Positions 2,287-12,114 of a stretch of 28,193 bases of DNA are shown here, piece after piece. The notes beneath the pieces were generated by a model, which was given only the letters and a program-made list of their open reading frames with translations, had not been told where the DNA came from and searched no databases. The number at the start of each line of letters is the position of its first letter. The first letter of the stretch is position 1. The DNA comes from a virus. A program made the translations under genes and the position numbers. The stretch lies in the IMG/VR virus record IMGVR_UViG_3300008339_000372, positions 1 through 28,193 of that record. One strand, 5' to 3'.

Positions 2287-3663
2287 CTACCCCAGCACCC
2301 TGTAGTCTGCTACTGCCACTTGATGGCTCGGACGACGGGCCTGTTCCGTACCGCGGAACGGCTTGCGACCCTTGGCGAGATACCGGAATGCGTCTGCGTA
2401 ATGCGACGTCCAATCGTGCAGCGGCTTGTCCTTGAACCGCTGGAGCTTATCGTCGTATTCGCGCCTGTACTGCCGCAGGGCGTCGAGGGCGCGAGTCATC
2501 CTGCCCTTCGCCTCGTCTGCCGTTTCGCCCGGGAACGGATCTGGTGCGGTATTGAACTCGGTCGCAGGAAGCATCATTCGCGCAGCTTGGATGCCGTCGT
2601 CCACCGAGTCACGCTCAAGGATGCGTGGCTTCAAGCCGTAGCCAGCAGCGACCTGTACTCGAGACTGCCCAGATCCCCACTCCTGCACAGCGCCGTCGTG
2701 CGGCCAGATGTGATCGCCGTAGACGTAATCCATTGCGAGCAGCTTCTTGACGTACCACTCGAGTCCGACGCCGGAGCCTTCGAGTACGTTGATGATGCGC
2801 ACCTTGTGACCGATGAGTTGGTAGAACCAGATGATCGTGGAGTCGCCGACACCGATATCCCATGCCGTGCCGACAGGCTGACCGATAACGTGCGGGAAGT
2901 CGCCGATCCTGCCGTTGGCTTCTGCGCTGCGGATCAGCTCCGATAGGTATGCGCCCGGGATGTCTGCGTCGAAGTCGCAATAGTATTCCTGCCGGATGAT
3001 CGCTTCGGCTTCCTTGTCGCCGCGCTCCATGCGCAGCTCCTTGCGCTCACGCTGGATCGTGCCCATCGGGATCGCCTTTGTATCCTCGACGGTGAGCACC
3101 TGACCGAACCAGTCAGCATCCTGCTTGGCGTACTCGACTAGCCGAGCAAAGTGGTTCCTGCCGCGGGGTGTCGAGATGAAGATCGCCCAGCCGCCGTTCT
3201 CTGCAAGGATCGGACGCAGGAATGCCCACGCATTCGGATCTGCCATCGCGTACTCGGAGAACACGACGCCGACCGGAGGCGAGCCGACAAGGCTGTTGTA
3301 GTTATCCGATCCGACAACTTGCCATGTGCTGCCGTTCTTAAACCGGATAAACATATCCTGCTCGCGAGTGCTCTCGCGCAGCTCCATCGGGAATGCGTCA
3401 TCGATGCGGCGCTTGCCGGTGTGCGGGTTGACCGCATCCCAGATTGCTTTGCGCGACTGGTTGGCCTGCGGAAGCATGTGCCACACCGAGCCCACGCGAG
3501 TCATCATGGACACAGCAGCCCAATGCAGGCTGATGTCGTCCTTACCGGATCGACGGTGCCAAGCCAGAGCAAGGCGCTTGGTGCCGCTCTCGAGCGCACC
3601 CCATGCCCCCATCTGATACGGTCTTGGTCTCCAGCCGTTATGCGGCAGGGTTATTGTCGGCAT
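2287..3663 (-). CDS. terL: terminase large subunit (packaging ATPase/nuclease)
   Basis: The product drives ATP-powered DNA packaging and cuts the concatemer. At 458 residues it is near the usual length. The N-terminal ATPase shows the adenine-binding-type start RPRPYQMGAWGALESG, a deviant Walker A loop WHRRSGKD (35-42), a Walker B-like segment GVVFSEYAM (132-140) with the catalytic-type Glu after Ser, and a coupling-type segment IFISTPRG (161-168). The C-terminal RNase H-like nuclease is marked by Asp residues in TAWDIG (about D269), IWPHDG (about D323) and SHYADAFRY (about 430-440). It overlaps the small-subunit gene by 26 bases in another frame. Packaging mode (cos, pac or direct repeats) cannot be told from this alone. 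Confidence 0.93.
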   Translation of the reverse strand: MPTITLPHNGWRPRPYQMGAWGALESGTKRLALAWHRRSGKDDISLHWAAVSMMTRVGSVWHMLPQANQSRKAIWDAVNPHTGKRRIDDAFPMELRESTREQDMFIRFKNGSTWQVVGSDNYNSLVGSPPVGVVFSEYAMADPNAWAFLRPILAENGGWAIFISTPRGRNHFARLVEYAKQDADWFGQVLTVEDTKAIPMGTIQRERKELRMERGDKEAEAIIRQEYYCDFDADIPGAYLSELIRSAEANGRIGDFPHVIGQPVGTAWDIGVGDSTIIWFYQLIGHKVRIINVLEGSGVGLEWYVKKLLAMDYVYGDHIWPHDGAVQEWGSGQSRVQVAAGYGLKPRILERDSVDDGIQAARMMLPATEFNTAPDPFPGETADEAKGRMTRALDALRQYRREYDDKLQRFKDKPLHDWTSHYADAFRYLAKGRKPFRGTEQARRPSHQVAVADYRVLG

Positions 3664-4024
3664 CGGTTAGACGAACCACGTTGACGGTCAGACCGACGTT
3701 GCCGGAGTGCTCGACCTCGGCCTTGTCGCCGTATCGTTTTGGCAGGAACTTGGACGCGAACCACTTGCGAGCATCGAGCTCGACCCGAGCCTGCTGGGCA
3801 TCGATGACGCCAGAGCGCATATCCTCGATGACTTGCTCGGCCTTCTCGACCTGATCCTGCGCCAGAGCTTCTAATGCGCGCGCGTAGTGGTCGCCCGAAT
3901 TGACTCTCAACGCCGTCGTCCTAAACGTCGAGCGGCTGATTCCCACTTCCGCGCAGGCCGATCGCTCGGACATTCCGTCCTCGATCAGCTCCAGTACGCG
4001 CCGGACTTGCTCGGCTTTATCCAT
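3638..4024 (-). CDS. terS: terminase small subunit
   Basis: This 128-residue protein starts with a helix-turn-helix (AEQVRRVLELIEDGMSERSA followed by CAEVGISRSTFR, residues 4-35), as expected of the DNA-recognition part of small terminases. A helical middle and the segment DARKWFASKFLPKRYGDK (about 84-101) follow; this 'W-A-K-PK-YGDK' signature is typical of the family. The gene directly precedes and overlaps the large subunit, and its ATG overlaps the TGA of the tiny gene upstream. Family recognition plus order make the call firm. Confidence 0.88.
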   Translation of the reverse strand: MDKAEQVRRVLELIEDGMSERSACAEVGISRSTFRTTALRVNSGDHYARALEALAQDQVEKAEQVIEDMRSGVIDAQQARVELDARKWFASKFLPKRYGDKAEVEHSGNVGLTVNVVRLTDADNNPAA

Positions 4025-7430: not shown

Positions 7431-7600
7431 AAGCCCCCGCCAACCGGGGGTTTGTCGTTTCTAGCCTCTGTGACGGCCTCACAGATGATCTTGATGATCG
7501 CAGCCACCGTTCTAGCCTTGCGTCGAGATGCCCTAGCAGACGCTCTCCGTTCGCTTAATCGACGCCAGTAATAAGCTCGGTGGTATTCGGTACGACTCAA
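7199..7600 (-). CDS. doubtful reading frame after mom-like gene, up to 133 aa
   Basis: The ATG at 7600 overlaps the stop of the mom-like gene by four bases, as real genes here do. The first 50 residues (MSRTEYHRAYYWRRLSERRA, then basic and Ala/Ile-rich) look like a short basic phage protein. From about residue 50 onward the frame passes through a C/G-rich hairpin and other inverted repeats, and the translation becomes Ser/Pro/Arg-rich without recognisable structure. I think a short gene may begin here and that the rest is untranslated or noise. Confidence 0.3.
   Translation of the reverse strand: MSRTEYHRAYYWRRLSERRASARASRRKARTVAAIIKIICEAVTEARNDKPPVGGGLTLPRVSSTLGLRSSVIGSLKDCSSPVNHPTTPRSSGSLDGETTRRESLNPHRGGQPVGAQRVVGKRKWQSEQSDEK
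7431..7453. terminator. C/G-rich hairpin, possible terminator
   Basis: Five C (7434-7438) and five G (7446-7450) pair around a seven-base loop, and AAG/TTT flanks extend the stem. On the plus strand it is followed by TTTGTCGTTT, a loose T-run; on the minus strand by GCTTGACG. It could stop transcription in either direction, separating mom from the genes downstream, but the T-run is weak. Confidence 0.4.
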
Positions 7601-8265
7601 AACAATTGCCCTTGCGTAGCCGGTGCGTAACCAATTTCATATCGGTTGCTATCGCCTTTTGGGTAAGGCTCTATTGGATATAGCAATTGAGATAACAGTC
7701 TTTTACGATCTTTTTTATCACCGCAGATATAAATATATCGATGTTTACGCGGGCGATCTTCTGCATGAAAATCATCCCCAAATCGCTGCCGCAAATATTC
7801 GGCTGCACTTTCTTGCCCTTTTGCTAAAGCCGAAACACCTCGACTATGCAGACCTTCCATGCCTTTTATCTTCCAATCCTTTCGTTTTGCGGATAAACCC
7901 GTATATAAAAAATTGGTTGCCTGATAAACATACCCAATATGACCTTGGGCGCTATCCGCAAAACTGACAACAATCGTAGGCTTTGGAAGCAATTTAAGGC
8001 TATGAGAAACCAGTAGGCTTGGCCCATTTTTAATAGGTTCGGCAAAAACAAGCCGATTTAATTCCAAGACTATGTTGCCATTTTTCGGGCCAGCGATCCC
8101 TTCGCAGAGATGACGGCTCGGAGGGCTGCCATAAGTCACAACCCCTTTCAGTTGTTGCCCATCGAATAATCCAAATGCATAGGACACGCACGGAATGCGT
8201 TTAGCGTAATGAACGCGCAACAGCCAATCGTGTGTTTCTTCGTTTTTTACAGGCAATACACGCAT
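7597..8265 (-). CDS. Mom-like DNA adenine modification protein (GNAT-type)
   Basis: I assign this 222-residue protein to the family of phage Mu Mom, which modifies adenines to a carbamoylmethyl-type base and protects DNA from restriction. Supporting features are 'HYAKRIPCVSYAFGLFDG' (19-36), 'GVVTYGSPPS' (41-50), 'LELNRLVFAEPIKNGPSLLV' (67-86), and 'SFADSAQGHIGYVYQATNFL' with YTG (101-123); the last is the strongest family mark. Length is close to Mu Mom (about 240). The gene is much richer in A/T than its surroundings (7681-7740 is about 30% G+C), which suggests acquisition by transfer. It follows the regulator gene by two bases. No com-like activator is adjacent. Substrate specificity and the exact base are unknown. 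Confidence 0.78.
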   Translation of the reverse strand: MRVLPVKNEETHDWLLRVHYAKRIPCVSYAFGLFDGQQLKGVVTYGSPPSRHLCEGIAGPKNGNIVLELNRLVFAEPIKNGPSLLVSHSLKLLPKPTIVVSFADSAQGHIGYVYQATNFLYTGLSAKRKDWKIKGMEGLHSRGVSALAKGQESAAEYLRQRFGDDFHAEDRPRKHRYIYICGDKKDRKRLLSQLLYPIEPYPKGDSNRYEIGYAPATQGQLF

Positions 8266-8267
8266 CG

Positions 8268-8498
8268 TCAGCCTTTCTCAGCCCATCGACGGGCAGCCTC
8301 GACTTGGAGCTGCTTCCTGCGTATGCGAGCGTCTACGGGCTTAGGCGCAGCCACAAGGCCAAGCTGTAGCCGCATGACTTGCTTCTCAGGCAATACGCCT
8401 TTGCGTACCCATCGTGATACCGCTGGCTGCGAGACGCCGAACGCTCGAGCCAGATCCGCTTTGCTACCGAACGTAGCGAGTGCATCGTTGATGTCCAT
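8268..8498 (-). CDS. Cro/YdaS-like helix-turn-helix regulator, 76 aa
   Basis: This 76-residue protein has a clear helix-turn-helix at residues 9-32: FGSKADLARAFGVSQPAVSR followed by WVRKGVLP, like Cro, YdaS and other small phage repressors. A basic C-terminal helix (RIRRKQLQVEAARRWAEKG) follows. It is divergently oriented to the early operon and has no purine-rich site upstream of the ATG; a -10-like TAACAT ends seven bases from the start, so the mRNA may be leaderless. Operator-like repeats in and around its promoter suggest autoregulation. Whether it acts as Cro or as the main repressor is open. Confidence 0.82.
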   Translation of the reverse strand: MDINDALATFGSKADLARAFGVSQPAVSRWVRKGVLPEKQVMRLQLGLVAAPKPVDARIRRKQLQVEAARRWAEKG

Positions 8499-8504
8499 CT
8501 GTGT

Positions 8505-8533
8505 ATGTTAACCACAGTTACTTGGAATTGATA
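8505..8533 (-). promoter_or_regulatory. putative promoter and operator O1 of the regulator gene
   Basis: Reading leftward, a weak -35 TATCAA (8533-8528), a 17-base spacer and -10 TAACAT (8510-8505) lie just before the regulator ATG at 8498. Positions 8508-8520 contain the operator-like sequence TTAAC CACA GTTA, covering part of the -10 and spacer. The poor -35 would fit activation or tight control. Confidence 0.5.
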
Positions 8534-8583
8534 CACCGACAGAATGCATAGCAACGGAGGCAGGTATTTTCTGTGGAGGGGTG

Positions 8584-8611
8584 TTGACTATTACTTAACC
8601 TGTGTTAACGT
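8584..8611 (+). promoter_or_regulatory. putative early promoter with operator O2
   Basis: TTGACT (8584-8589) and TAACGT (8606-8611) are spaced by 16 bases. Between and over the -10 lies a perfect inverted repeat TTAAC CTGT GTTAA (8595-8608), and TGTGT/ACACA (8601-8616) adds a second dyad. The gene at 8655 is about 35 bases downstream of the expected start of transcription. It would drive the rightward early operon and be shut by binding of the adjacent regulator. Confidence 0.6.
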
Positions 8612-8654
8612 ACACACATGGGCGGCACGGTGCAGCCCGAACAGGAGATACACA

Positions 8655-8912
8655 ATGAGCAGCTTAAAGATTGGTTCCCTTGTCAAGAGCCTTGATTTCC
8701 ACAGCAACCGCGATTGTTACTACATCGGGATCGTCAAAAGCATTAACGCTGACGAAGGCACGTTTACCGCCGAAACCGTTGCGCGATATTGGGAAGGCGC
8801 CCCGCTCAAAATCGAATTGCCGGTCAACTTTACGGCACCAATGGAAGGCAACCACTTTTTTGATGATCCGTCACGCCCTCGCGTAATCAACCTTGACGAG
8901 GTGGCGGCATAA
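8655..8912 (+). CDS. first early-operon protein, 85 aa
   Basis: The start at 8655 follows AGGAG (8643-8647) at seven bases; longer upstream readings would cross the promoter. The 85 residues read MSSLKIGSLVKSLDFHSNRD, then 'CYYIGIVKSINADEGTFTAE' and a C-terminal 'NFTAPMEGNHFFDDPSRP'. It looks like a small beta-barrel, SH3-like protein (KIGSLVKSLDF...YYIGIVKSI), a fold used by several phage proteins, but no function is known. It is followed by its own intergenic promoter, so it may be expressed separately from the genes downstream. Confidence 0.7.
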   Translation: MSSLKIGSLVKSLDFHSNRDCYYIGIVKSINADEGTFTAETVARYWEGAPLKIELPVNFTAPMEGNHFFDDPSRPRVINLDEVAA

Positions 8913-8930
8913 GCCGCCCCTCTCGGGCTG

Positions 8931-8958
8931 TTGACTTTCTCTTAACCGACGTTACGAT
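8931..8958 (+). promoter_or_regulatory. putative second early promoter with operator O3
   Basis: TTGACT (8931-8936), 16 bases, then TACGAT (8953-8958). The spacer carries TTAAC CGAC GTTA (8942-8954), the same operator pattern as upstream. The whole block closely repeats the first early promoter, including the CTTAACC segment and the following GCACATA/ACACAT. Confidence 0.55.
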
Positions 8959-8985: not shown

Positions 8986-9306
8986 ATGGGTACACAAGCT
9001 TTCTGCTCCAGCTGCAACAGCCTTGAGCCGGCCTTTGAGTGCATCGGCATCAATCACTACGGTGACGAGGAGTTCGGCTGGTTTTGCGAATCCTGCGAAT
9101 CGCAGCATGAGACTTGCCATTGCGGCAACCCGGCTCACGAATTCCAATGCATCGACTGCGACCTCAAACTCATCCTCAAGACCGAAGGCGAACTCGAGTC
9201 TTGGATCGAATGGCTGGAAGCCAATGACGATCCCAAGAGCCATGAGGTGCGTTACGCCACATTCCTCGTCAAAGCCGCTCAAGCCAAACTCGCGGAGGCC
9301 GCATGA
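8986..9306 (+). CDS. Cys-rich zinc-binding-like protein, 106 aa
   Basis: The N-terminal 60 residues carry four Cys pairs or clusters: FCSSC (7-11), WFCESCES (32-39), CHCGNP (44-49) and CIDC (55-58), with intervening His, typical of a multi-zinc domain. The C-terminal 45 residues form an acidic/helical segment (EGELESWIEWLEANDDPKSH). AGGAGA lies seven bases before the ATG. It is the first gene after the second promoter. Similar zinc proteins in phages act as regulators or inhibitors of host enzymes, but no target is known. Confidence 0.68.
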   Translation: MGTQAFCSSCNSLEPAFECIGINHYGDEEFGWFCESCESQHETCHCGNPAHEFQCIDCDLKLILKTEGELESWIEWLEANDDPKSHEVRYATFLVKAAQAKLAEAA

Positions 9307-9607: not shown

Positions 9608-9770
9608 CGCCCCTTGGGGCAACGACGATCAGAGCTGGTGGCACCAGCAGGAGATGGAGGCGCAGGAGCGTGACGAGCAGGAGCGCATCGCTGCCTGCGA
9701 CCGGGCGCTTGCCGAGCTAAACGCAATAATCGAAACCGAACTAGACAAGATCTACAGGAGCCTGCCGTGA
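9594..9770 (+). CDS. acidic Trp/Gln-rich protein, 58 aa
   Basis: The ATG at 9594 has AGGAG (9582-9586) upstream; an earlier start would run through the neighbour's frame. The protein begins MPIDNAPWGNDDQSWWHQQE and continues as a strongly acidic helix (EMEAQERDEQERIAACDRAL, then 'ELNAIIETELDKIY'). It resembles small phage proteins located before Sak-type annealing genes. Its C-terminus overlaps the annealing protein start. Function unknown. Confidence 0.55.
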   Translation: MPIDNAPWGNDDQSWWHQQEMEAQERDEQERIAACDRALAELNAIIETELDKIYRSLP

Positions 9771-10285
9771 GCGAATTACTCAAGATCAACGTCAACGACC
9801 ACGTTGAAAAGAAGAACGGTCTCTCGTACCTGTCGTGGGCATGGGCTTGGGCAGAGGTGCTCAAGATCGACCCGACCGCTCGATACACGGTTCACGAGTA
9901 CGACGGGCTGCCGCTGGTCTATCTGAAAGACAATAGCGCGATGGTCAAGGTATCGGTCGAGATCAAGGGTGACATCAAGACCTGTCTGCTGCCGGTGCTC
10001 GACCACCGCAACAAGCCGATCGAGAACCCGAACAGCTTTGCGGTGAACACCTCAATCATGCGTTGCCTTGCCAAGTGCATCGCGTTACATGGGCTCGGTC
10101 TATACATCTACGCTGGCGAGGATCTGCCGGAAGCAGAGAAAGACGAGATGGAGACCAAGCTCGATGCCCTCCTCGCTGACTGCAACACGCTAGAGGAGCT
10201 GACTACGCTGTACCAAACCCTGCCGTTAGATTTTGCCAAGAATCACGCTGCCAAGTTTTCGGCTAGAAAGAAGGAGCTTGCCTAA
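9767..10285 (+). CDS. ssDNA annealing protein of the Sak3/DUF1071 type
   Basis: This family pairs complementary single strands, working with a phage exonuclease in recombination. The 172-residue protein starts at a GTG with CAGGAG seven bases upstream. Signatures are 'NGLSYLSWAWAWAEVLKIDP' (about 18-37), 'VHEYDGLPLVYLKDNSAMVK' (about 43-62), 'NSFAVNTSIMRCLAKCIALH' (about 88-107) and 'GLGLYIYAGEDLPE'. These match DUF1071 (an ERF/Sak-type annealing family). It lies three genes upstream of the NinB-type gene and one before the YqaJ gene with only one small protein between, a classic single-strand-annealing module. No ATPase motif is present, as expected. Confidence 0.85.
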   Translation: MSELLKINVNDHVEKKNGLSYLSWAWAWAEVLKIDPTARYTVHEYDGLPLVYLKDNSAMVKVSVEIKGDIKTCLLPVLDHRNKPIENPNSFAVNTSIMRCLAKCIALHGLGLYIYAGEDLPEAEKDEMETKLDALLADCNTLEELTTLYQTLPLDFAKNHAAKFSARKKELA

Positions 10286-10827
10286 TGCTCTACACCCACG
10301 CAGGGGCGCTGCCAGCGCACCAATACGTTTGGGTGGAGCCCAACGCCCTCGGCCAGCACGACTGGTTGCAGGGCGTCTGGTTCGGTCTGACTTGCTACCC
10401 GGGCCGCGCCTTCGGCTGCCATGTGATGCTCGAGTGCGGAGCGGTTTACCGTAACGTGCCGTTGCATCAAGTTGCACACCGTAACACCGCAGCACCGTGG
10501 ACTGCCGCCGACGCTCAAACATGGGACGCCTACGGCTACGAGTTCAGCATGATCGAGTACCCGTACCTCGCCAGCATGAACGGTAAAGCCCGGTGCAAGA
10601 GTGGCGAATATCAGGGACACTACTTGTTTACTTTGGTGCCGATCGGTGATGCGTTTAGCGCCACACCGACGCAATCCAAAGAGTTCTATTTCATGCAGCT
10701 CACCAACGGGCGATACACCGCCCAGCCCACGAATCATGTCCTGCTCGAGGATCGCTCGTTCACGGACACCCTTACATGGCCGACGTTTCTGCGCCGGCAA
10801 ACCGATTGGCATTCAGCGGAGGAATGA
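10285..10827 (+). CDS. conserved-looking phage protein inside recombination operon, 180 aa
   Basis: Start ATG overlaps the TAA of the annealing gene by one base and follows AAGGAG. The protein has many aromatic and polar segments: GCHVMLECGAVYRNVPLHQV (48-67), 'WDAYGYEFSMIEYPYLASMN' (79-98), 'HYLFTLVPIGDAFSATPTQS' (110-129) and 'SKEFYFMQLTNGRYTAQPT'. I recall related hypothetical proteins in recombination or replication clusters of many phages. No named domain or catalytic motif is seen. It is acidic to neutral with no membrane segment. A structural or regulatory partner of the exonuclease is conceivable. Confidence 0.6.
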   Translation: MLYTHAGALPAHQYVWVEPNALGQHDWLQGVWFGLTCYPGRAFGCHVMLECGAVYRNVPLHQVAHRNTAAPWTAADAQTWDAYGYEFSMIEYPYLASMNGKARCKSGEYQGHYLFTLVPIGDAFSATPTQSKEFYFMQLTNGRYTAQPTNHVLLEDRSFTDTLTWPTFLRRQTDWHSAEE

Positions 10828-11426
10828 TGGAACAACGATCACCAGAATGGTACTCGGCGCGCCTCGGTCTCGTGACCGGGAGTGCTATCTCCAACGTCCT
10901 GATGGATAGCACCAAGGCCGGATACCGAAACTACATGGCGCAGCTCATCTGCGAGCGCCTCACCGGGGAGCCTACGGAGACCTACGTCAGCCCTGCGATG
11001 CAGCACGGCATCGACACAGAGGATGAAGCGCGCGCCGCTTATATGGCTCGTAATGCGGTCATCGTCGATCAGACGGGATTCGTCCGGCACCCGAAGCTGG
11101 AGGCAGGCTGCTCACCAGATGGGCTCGTCAATGAGGATGGTTTGATCGAGATCAAATGCGTACAGCCGGCGACCGCCTTGGACTTGCTCGAGTCGAAGAA
11201 AGTTCCGACCGACCACTACAACCAGATCCAATGGCAGCTCGCCGTCACCGGGCGAGACTGGTGCGATTACGTCGTGTACCAGCCGAAGCTGCCGGAGCGC
11301 CTGCGCCTCAACGTGATCCGCGTGACGCGCAATCAAGCCGACATTCTGAACATGACCGAGAAGGTCGAGAAGTTCCTTGAAGAAGTTCGACGCAAAACCA
11401 AAGCCCTAAAGGAGATGACCCTGTGA
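10827..11426 (+). CDS. YqaJ/lambda-exonuclease-type recombinase nuclease
   Basis: This enzyme type resects double-strand ends 5' to 3' to supply single strands for annealing. I use the second of two adjacent ATGs (10824 and 10827); the first is one base from the GGAGG site. Core marks are 'EQRSPEWYSARLGLVTGSAI' (2-21), 'QHGIDTEDEARAAY' (about 55-68), 'GCSPDGLVNEDGLIEIKCVQ' (about 92-111, containing the D-EIK nuclease motif) and 'DHYNQIQWQLAVTG' (about 129-142). The 199-residue length is typical. It overlaps the upstream gene at the ATGATG junction and the SSB-tip gene by a GTGA. Confidence 0.88.
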   Translation: MEQRSPEWYSARLGLVTGSAISNVLMDSTKAGYRNYMAQLICERLTGEPTETYVSPAMQHGIDTEDEARAAYMARNAVIVDQTGFVRHPKLEAGCSPDGLVNEDGLIEIKCVQPATALDLLESKKVPTDHYNQIQWQLAVTGRDWCDYVVYQPKLPERLRLNVIRVTRNQADILNMTEKVEKFLEEVRRKTKALKEMTL

Positions 11427-11704
11427 AACAGTACGACAACACCAATCGTGGTTTGCTAGCCAAGAACGATCGCAAGCAGAGCGAGAACCAGCCGGACTAC
11501 ACCGGCAGCATCAACATCAACGGCGTCGAGTATTGGCTCAACGGCTGGCTCAAGACAGGGCAGAACGGCAGGCTGGCAGGCCAGAAATTCTTTTCGCTAT
11601 CCGTCAAACCGAAGGATGGTCTCGCTGAACCGCGGCAAGCACCAAAGCAGCAGCAAGTCGTCGAGACGTTCAGCGACGATGACATCGCGGATATCCCGTT
11701 TTGA
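11423..11704 (+). CDS. small ssDNA-associated protein with SSB-like acidic C-terminal tip, 93 aa
   Basis: This 93-residue GTG-started protein has MKQYDNTNRGLLAKNDRKQS (1-20), then 'GSININGVEYWLNGWLKTGQ' (28-47) and 'FFSLSVKPKDG', a layout widespread in phages and related in style to DUF736-type proteins. After a Gln-rich linker it ends FSDDDIADIPF. This matches the acidic tip of bacterial SSB proteins (D-D-D-I-P-F), the docking peptide for recombination and repair enzymes. Placement between a YqaJ exonuclease and NinB supports a DNA-recombination role. The link to SSB is by tip and context; the body is not an OB fold that I can recognise. Confidence 0.65.
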   Translation: MKQYDNTNRGLLAKNDRKQSENQPDYTGSININGVEYWLNGWLKTGQNGRLAGQKFFSLSVKPKDGLAEPRQAPKQQQVVETFSDDDIADIPF

Positions 11705-12114
11705 AACGAGTATTCCCTCGCGGCACCCAACCAGACCAGATCGCTTCGGCGGTCTCGGTCTTGGTGCGAGGGCTTGACCCTGCCATCTCGTGGCAAGTCA
11801 CTATCGAGGCATTCAAGCCGAAACGATCCGACAGGCAGAACTCATTCCTATGGGGCGTGATATATCCCAGCATCCTTGAAGGAGGCGGTGAGATGCTGCG
11901 AGGTTGGACAGCAGACGATCTGCACGAATACTTCCTGATCGAAGCATTCGGCTCGGAGATCATCGAGGGCTTTGGCCGCAAGCGACACAAACCGATCCGC
12001 AGATCCAGCAAGCTCACCAAGCAGGAGTTCAGCGACTACCTTGCCATCATTGAGGCCAAGTGCGCGGAGCTCGGCATTCACATACCAGAACCCGACTACG
12101 GAGAACACAAGTGA
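11701..12114 (+). CDS. ninB: NinB/Orf-type recombination protein
   Basis: The start is a TTG overlapping the previous TGA. NinB-type proteins bind single strands and assist annealing proteins by displacing SSB. Family-like regions are 'KPKRSDRQNSFLWGVIYPSI' (about 40-59), 'GWTADDLHEYFLIEAFGSEI' (about 69-88) and 'HKPIRRSSKLTKQEFSDYLA' (about 97-116) ending in 'GIHIPEPDYGE', similar to lambda NinB. Length 137 is slightly below lambda's (about 146). It sits beside a protein with an SSB-type tip, which makes a NinB assignment more likely. Confidence 0.75.
   Translation: MKRVFPRGTQPDQIASAVSVLVRGLDPAISWQVTIEAFKPKRSDRQNSFLWGVIYPSILEGGGEMLRGWTADDLHEYFLIEAFGSEIIEGFGRKRHKPIRRSSKLTKQEFSDYLAIIEAKCAELGIHIPEPDYGEHK

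Follow-up and report, generated by a model that had tools for sequence, protein, structure and literature searches.

Genes of the locus and lineage of the virus

The window, i.e., the whole stretch of viral DNA that was analyzed (28,193 bp of an IMG/VR virus record), contains a leftward gene unit with the order regulator, Mom-type protein, RusA and terminase and, divergent from it, a rightward early operon with recombination genes. The genes that are important for the following analysis are:

7597-8265, minus strand: Mom-type DNA modification gene (PF25680, 136 bits), directly downstream of the regulator
8268-8498, minus strand: Cro-type regulator, 76 aa, first gene of the leftward unit, recognition-helix region VSQPAVSRW
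8655-8912, plus strand: slot gene, 85 aa, with other small genes at this place in close relatives
8986-9306, plus strand: Cys-rich, zinc-ribbon-like protein, 106 aa, first gene after promoter C
9767-11426, plus strand: body of the rightward operon with the Sak, ferredoxin-PHROG and YqaJ/RecE-like genes
9767-10285, plus strand: Sak annealing protein
10285-10827, plus strand: ferredoxin-PHROG protein
10776-11426, plus strand: YqaJ/RecE-like exonuclease
11701-12114, plus strand: NinB-like recombination mediator, further down the rightward operon

The major capsid protein is nearest to those of the Manatee Spring podovirus (54%) and of HTVC010P-type Pelagibacter phages (~42%), and the virion proteins follow a podovirus plan. 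The lineage is that of freshwater HTVC010P-like podoviruses. A megablast search of the window against named phages gave no match. Except for a break at 107-217, the 35.6-kb contig IMGVR_UViG_3300008266_000361 includes the whole window at 100% identity. This disagreement, seen as a break in the blastn alignment, is probably a repeat in a tail-fibre-like gene that was assembled differently. Compared with the near-complete relative G013, it is mainly a lysozyme gene that is missing from the extended contig.

Three operator-like sites between the regulator and the early operon

From the sequence-only reading three sites with the pattern TTAAC-N4-GTTA were known, termed operators A, B and C here. 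All three are present as described and the genome-wide motif search, which had been proposed as a check, returned them as the sole matches in the window, without a further copy elsewhere. The control elements of the locus are:

8505-8510, minus strand: -10-like TAACAT of promoter A, 6 nt before the regulator ATG
8508-8520: operator A, TTAAC-CACA-GTTA (TTAACCACAGTTA), overlaps the -10 of the regulator's own promoter
8584-8611, plus strand: early promoter B, TTGACT (8584-8589), 16-bp spacer, TAACGT (8606-8611); 8/12
8595-8608: operator B, TTAAC-CTGT-GTTAA (TTAACCTGTGTTAA), in the spacer and -10 of promoter B
8620-8638, plus strand: leader hairpin GGGCGGCACGGTGCAGCCC, upstream of the Shine-Dalgarno of the slot gene; CCAGCACGGTGCTGG at the same place in group Ib relatives
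8898-8922, plus strand: 25-nt palindrome GAGGTGGCGGCATAAGCCGCCCCTC (= GAGGYGGCGGCNTAAGCCGCCCCTC), spans the stop codon of the slot gene
8931-8958, plus strand: early promoter C, TTGACT-16-TACGAT; 9/12
8942-8954: operator C, TTAAC-CGAC-GTTA (TTAACCGACGTTA), in the spacer and -10 of promoter C

Operator B is the perfect dyad that it had been claimed to be, with 5-bp arms without mismatch, and operators A and C are each one outer base short of this. The three copies fall within 450 bp, with 0.05 copies expected from dinucleotide shuffles of the window; the four matches that result when B is read on both strands were reached in none of 100 shuffles, and a three-site cluster occurred in none of 300 first-order Markov simulated windows. 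With a position weight matrix (PWM) trained on the sites of the window together with those of relatives, mainly the latter, the three sites score 20.5, 19.5 and 15.8, while the next-best site in the window (position 19 / 20-33, two arm mismatches) scores 10.2, about half. A scan of viral contigs for TTGAC-N6-TTAACY-N3-GTTA was not used as evidence, as unrelated phages were mixed in among the matches listed.

Each site was supposed to lie inside or over a promoter. This is well supported for C and fairly well for B, and it applies to A in part: a -10-like element is present there, the -35 being poor. Operators B and C have the same register, filling the spacer and reaching into the -10, and A shares the -10 register with both of them in the opposite direction. 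In the relatives L010 and L043 the -10 of promoter B reads TAATAT, and in the group Ib relatives L045 and L129 the TTGAC -35 of promoter B is lost and the operator is kept. At the regulator, the distance between a TAnnnT and the start codon is 6-9 nt in 17/17 selected group I/II relatives, and no clear Shine-Dalgarno was found upstream of the regulator gene in these relatives or in the window; the regulator mRNA is therefore probably leaderless or nearly so. Leaderless mRNAs are known for cI and paaR2 (PMC8630535). The leader hairpin downstream of promoter B shows folding z values of only -1.8 (GGGCGGCACGGTGCAGCCC) and -1.5 (CCAGCACGGTGCTGG). In group Ib its loop part GCACGGTGC is retained and the outer stem is altered. 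GGTGC hairpins of a similar kind are also present before some of the other genes with the 25-nt palindrome at their end.

The regulator is a Cro-type protein

The regulator scores above the curated Pfam cut-offs for both P22_Cro (PF14549, 34 bits, cut-off 30.2) and YdaS (PF15943, 32.2 bits, cut-off 30), and the closest solved structure is P22 Cro (1rzs, E 2.8e-5). The AlphaFold model (pLDDT 83) contains the helices H3-10, H13-20, H24-33, H38-45 and H56-75, i.e., the five-helix all-alpha Cro fold is predicted. Foldseek matched this model best to Xfaso1, P22 and N15 Cro, including N15 Cro on operator DNA; the ten best hits are Cro proteins or a Cro hybrid, with a TM(target) of 0.65 for P22 Cro, and with only 76 residues to compare no hit reached E <= 0.001. 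Since the P22_Cro and YdaS scores lie above threshold, 1rzs is the best structure and Cro proteins are the top folds, the regulator is, by sequence and predicted fold, a member of the P22/N15 Cro family. When named phages were searched by tblastn, the regulator matched for the most part enterobacterial (P22/lambda-like) Cro genes, 36-52% identical in the rows listed; the few other matches among these rows are from phages of Hafnia, Erwinia, Cronobacter and Arthrobacter. The protein consists of one HTH domain, and neither Pfam nor the model revealed a separate oligomerization or cleavable domain.

Recognition helix and operator change together in relatives

The regulator, terminase, Sak and Mom proteins served as queries to collect related loci. 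Where the regulator is 97-100% identical to that of the window, all three sites are retained, and where it is ~66-71% identical, the A/B/C arrangement is kept in L043, L045, L046, L101, L111 and L129. In the aligned A-B interval the arm positions are 18/18 identical between groups Ia and Ib, compared with 51-59% for the other 86 positions, and the arms of operator A alone are conserved at 9/9 positions. When arm conservation was compared with the rest of the intergenic DNA, Fisher tests gave P values of 5e-4 and 8e-5 for two of four comparisons. In L007, different genes occupy the slot, yet the third promoter after them carries a site with a CGCG centre in the place of operator C. At most group I loci the promoter of the regulator itself bears a site. 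Furthermore, a Cys-rich ORF starts at the same place after promoter C in relatives.

The regulators differ in their recognition helices, and the operators differ with them. Among 48 distinct regulators, which share ancestry so that the Fisher values given here are not corrected for relatedness, TTAAC-N4-GTTA is found near the start in 12/13 with the helix PAVSRW and in 0/35 with other helices (2e-10). Regulators with KGAVSQW are accompanied by a site of the type TTTAG-N4-CTAAA in 7/7 cases, other helices in 0/41 (1e-8), this motif having been defined after these loci had been viewed. Both operator classes occupy the same places over promoters. The repeat consensus GTTTAGTAA, which was reported for the YdaS/PaaR2 intergenic region (PMC8630535), begins with GTTTAG, the half-site of group II. 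In group III (RASVNRW) much of the C-terminal tail of the window protein is kept (RKQLQVEAARRWAEKG type) and the operator of the window is absent; only a weak common pattern, TTAGC-N4-GTTGA / TAGC-N4-GCTAA, was found there. For groups IV and V no motif was found.

That relatives carry matched pairs of an altered repressor and an altered site argues that the sites are real, and the strongest evidence at hand for their binding by the regulator is that helix and operator change jointly. The earlier assignment of one site to the regulator and two to the rightward operon, with the 76-aa protein as the one that binds them, thus gains strong support from the comparison of related sequences. The matched pairs, PAVSRW with TTAAC and KGAVSQW with TTTAG, could be used to test the recognition code proposed for Cro proteins.

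A slot for small genes between operators B and C

The 85-aa slot gene shows no significant match to Pfam or PHROG, and the slot genes of relatives that were scanned have no Pfam match. About eight different slot contents, encoding 66-102 aa, were found in the group I loci compared. Most relatives carry one slot gene, while L007 and the L045/L109/L111 group have two; one slot gene (102 aa) is common to L101 and L129, and the second slot gene of L109/L111 corresponds to the 66-aa L212 protein.

Common to the slot gene of the window and most relatives' slot genes is the 25-nt palindrome at their end. Its stem measures 10 bp, its loop holds the stop codon, and it is predicted to fold as RNA with -21.4 kcal/mol (z -5.5). 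An identical palindrome closes the slot of L005, L009/L010 and the L109 group, and in L007 it is found at the end of the first of two genes. Variants with one or two changes close the slot in L043 and L046/L116; the palindrome is absent from the 102-aa slot genes of L101 and L129. Altogether it was found in 69 viral contigs, 47 of which carry a lineage marker. In all 50 distinct cases listed the frame that ends at the TAA of the palindrome is open for at least 50 codons, with no start with a ribosome site for four occurrences. The 49 distinct products that end at the palindrome fall into 21 clusters without any blastp link between clusters at 1e-3. In the bacterial genomes scanned there was one match, which may be due to chance, at the end of an SSB-like gene in a Chloroflexi MAG.

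The palindrome could be an exchange boundary, an RNA 3' hairpin or a C-terminal E(V/A)AA tail. We tentatively suggest that promoter/operator B, the leader hairpin, one or two interchangeable genes, promoter/operator C and the common palindrome might together form a repressor-silenced cassette in lytic phages. If this holds, the palindrome would serve exchange (perhaps via Sak), the 3' stability of the mRNA or degradation through the E(V/A)AA signal. Candidate genes for host takeover or anti-defence in such a repressor-controlled slot could be collected systematically through the shared 3' palindrome.

Probable early-gene shut-off and its alternatives

The phage had been described as purely lytic in appearance, and this description is supported: the two lysogeny-related profiles searched, Phage_integrase (PF00589) and Resolvase (PF00239), matched none of 20 contigs of the lineage, which mostly measure 30-44 kb, and neither domain is apparent in the near-complete gene sets. 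A P22_Cro match is present in 18/20 of these contigs, with exactly one in 16 and a further very weak one in two. As far as the window and the gene sets compared show, no CI-like gene lies opposite the regulator. The compact phage switch that had been predicted from the three sites, if understood as a lysis/lysogeny switch, is therefore not supported, as no CI-like partner was seen at the locus and most contigs have a single P22_Cro match. Lambdoid CI/Cro switches have two divergent, antagonistic repressors that share operators, as well as integration and lysogenic maintenance; no such repressor pair was found here, and the integrase and resolvase profiles gave no sign of the latter. As neither an integrase or resolvase match in the 20 contigs nor a CI-like gene at the locus was found, early-gene shut-off with autoregulation would be the better reading of the module. 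Wider relatives may differ in lifestyle, since the Manatee Spring relative MW202898 (L202) encodes a XerD-like recombinase at 2840-3730, unlike the 20 contigs tested. The relative G013 (L207) encodes at 29325-29513, in the leftward arm, a 62-aa protein with an HTH-like sequence that has no match in the extended contig of the window. For the terminase, the matches among phages and plasmids were all distant and contributed no evidence on lifestyle.

We consider it likely, from the sequence comparisons, that a Cro-type autorepressor binds A, B and C and shuts off itself and the rightward early recombination operon. Sites, positions, family, predicted fold, arm constraint and co-variation were computed, and from here we infer that the 76-aa Cro protein binds the TTAAC-N4-GTTA palindromes as a dimer and acts as repressor rather than as activator. 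On B and C the repressor would fill the stretch between -35 and -10 and exclude the host RNA polymerase, silencing the early operon with the slot gene, the Cys-rich protein and the Sak/YqaJ/NinB recombination genes. At A it would cover the -10 of its own promoter and limit its own level. A pulse is the likely outcome, with the early genes on at entry and off once the regulator has accumulated. Such a mechanism is a variant of the textbook one. Occupancy of all three sites is not guaranteed, since a related Cro protein may discriminate between similar sites; phiKO2 Cro, for instance, binds only OR3 (PMC4997575).

The position of the regulator gene also allows another interpretation, which we regard as unlikely, namely that the protein is an immunity or carrier-state repressor that would keep an unintegrated genome dormant and exclude superinfecting relatives, i.e., a switch without CI. 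The gene occupies the place that cI has in lambda, is divergent to the early operon and has a probably leaderless start like cI and paaR2, and changed operator specificity among relatives is what turnover of immunity groups would lead to. However, a protein of 76 aa with a single HTH domain and without a recognizable oligomerization or cleavable domain, together with the absence of integrase and resolvase matches in the 20 contigs, argues against it. It is very improbable that the repeats are duplicated promoter cores with a shared -10 flank instead of operators: the common registers at B and C, and at A in the opposite direction, would fit, but sigma-70 contacts do not account for the conservation of the upstream 5-bp arms, which are in the spacer, the Ib relatives keep both arms at B despite the lost -35, and in another helix group this position is taken by a different palindrome. 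Least probable is that a host regulator binds the sites and the 76-aa protein acts elsewhere. Binding by the phage protein is deduced from sequence comparison, which leaves room for this, but the operator class changes with the recognition helix of the phage regulator and most group I loci place a site on the regulator's own promoter.

Comparison with known systems

As a probable autorepressor, the regulator resembles P22/N15 Cro (PF14549; 1rzs, 6on0, 3bd1) in its family score, the predicted all-alpha HTH fold and the small single domain, and the sites and the phylogenetic footprint resemble the P22/N15 situation in the palindromic operators with conserved half-sites over the regulator's own and the divergent promoters. 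In contrast to P22/N15 Cro, no CI/C2 partner is seen in the window, the regulator is encoded leftward, in the place of a cI gene, and its start is probably leaderless, and one regulator would serve two successive early promoters. YdaS (PF15943) of the E. coli prophages CP-933P and Rac is similar in that the regulator exceeds its Pfam cut-off and in that group II relatives use the GTTTAG half-sites of the YdaS/PaaR2 region (PMC8630535), whereas YdaS works opposite a CI-type partner in the immunity region of an integrated prophage. In the literature searched, no description of a Cro-type regulator in HTVC010P-type phages was found. Freshwater HTVC010P-related genomes were called lytic due to the lack of an integrase, and their GC content is ~32%, compared with 56.5% in the window (PMC6811365). 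The capsid protein links the window to these podoviruses, and a large freshwater HTVC010P-like lineage without recognizable integrases appears to keep a Cro-only control module. Unlike in HTVC010P-type phages, the Sak/YqaJ/NinB early operon of the window would be under the control of a Cro-type regulator.
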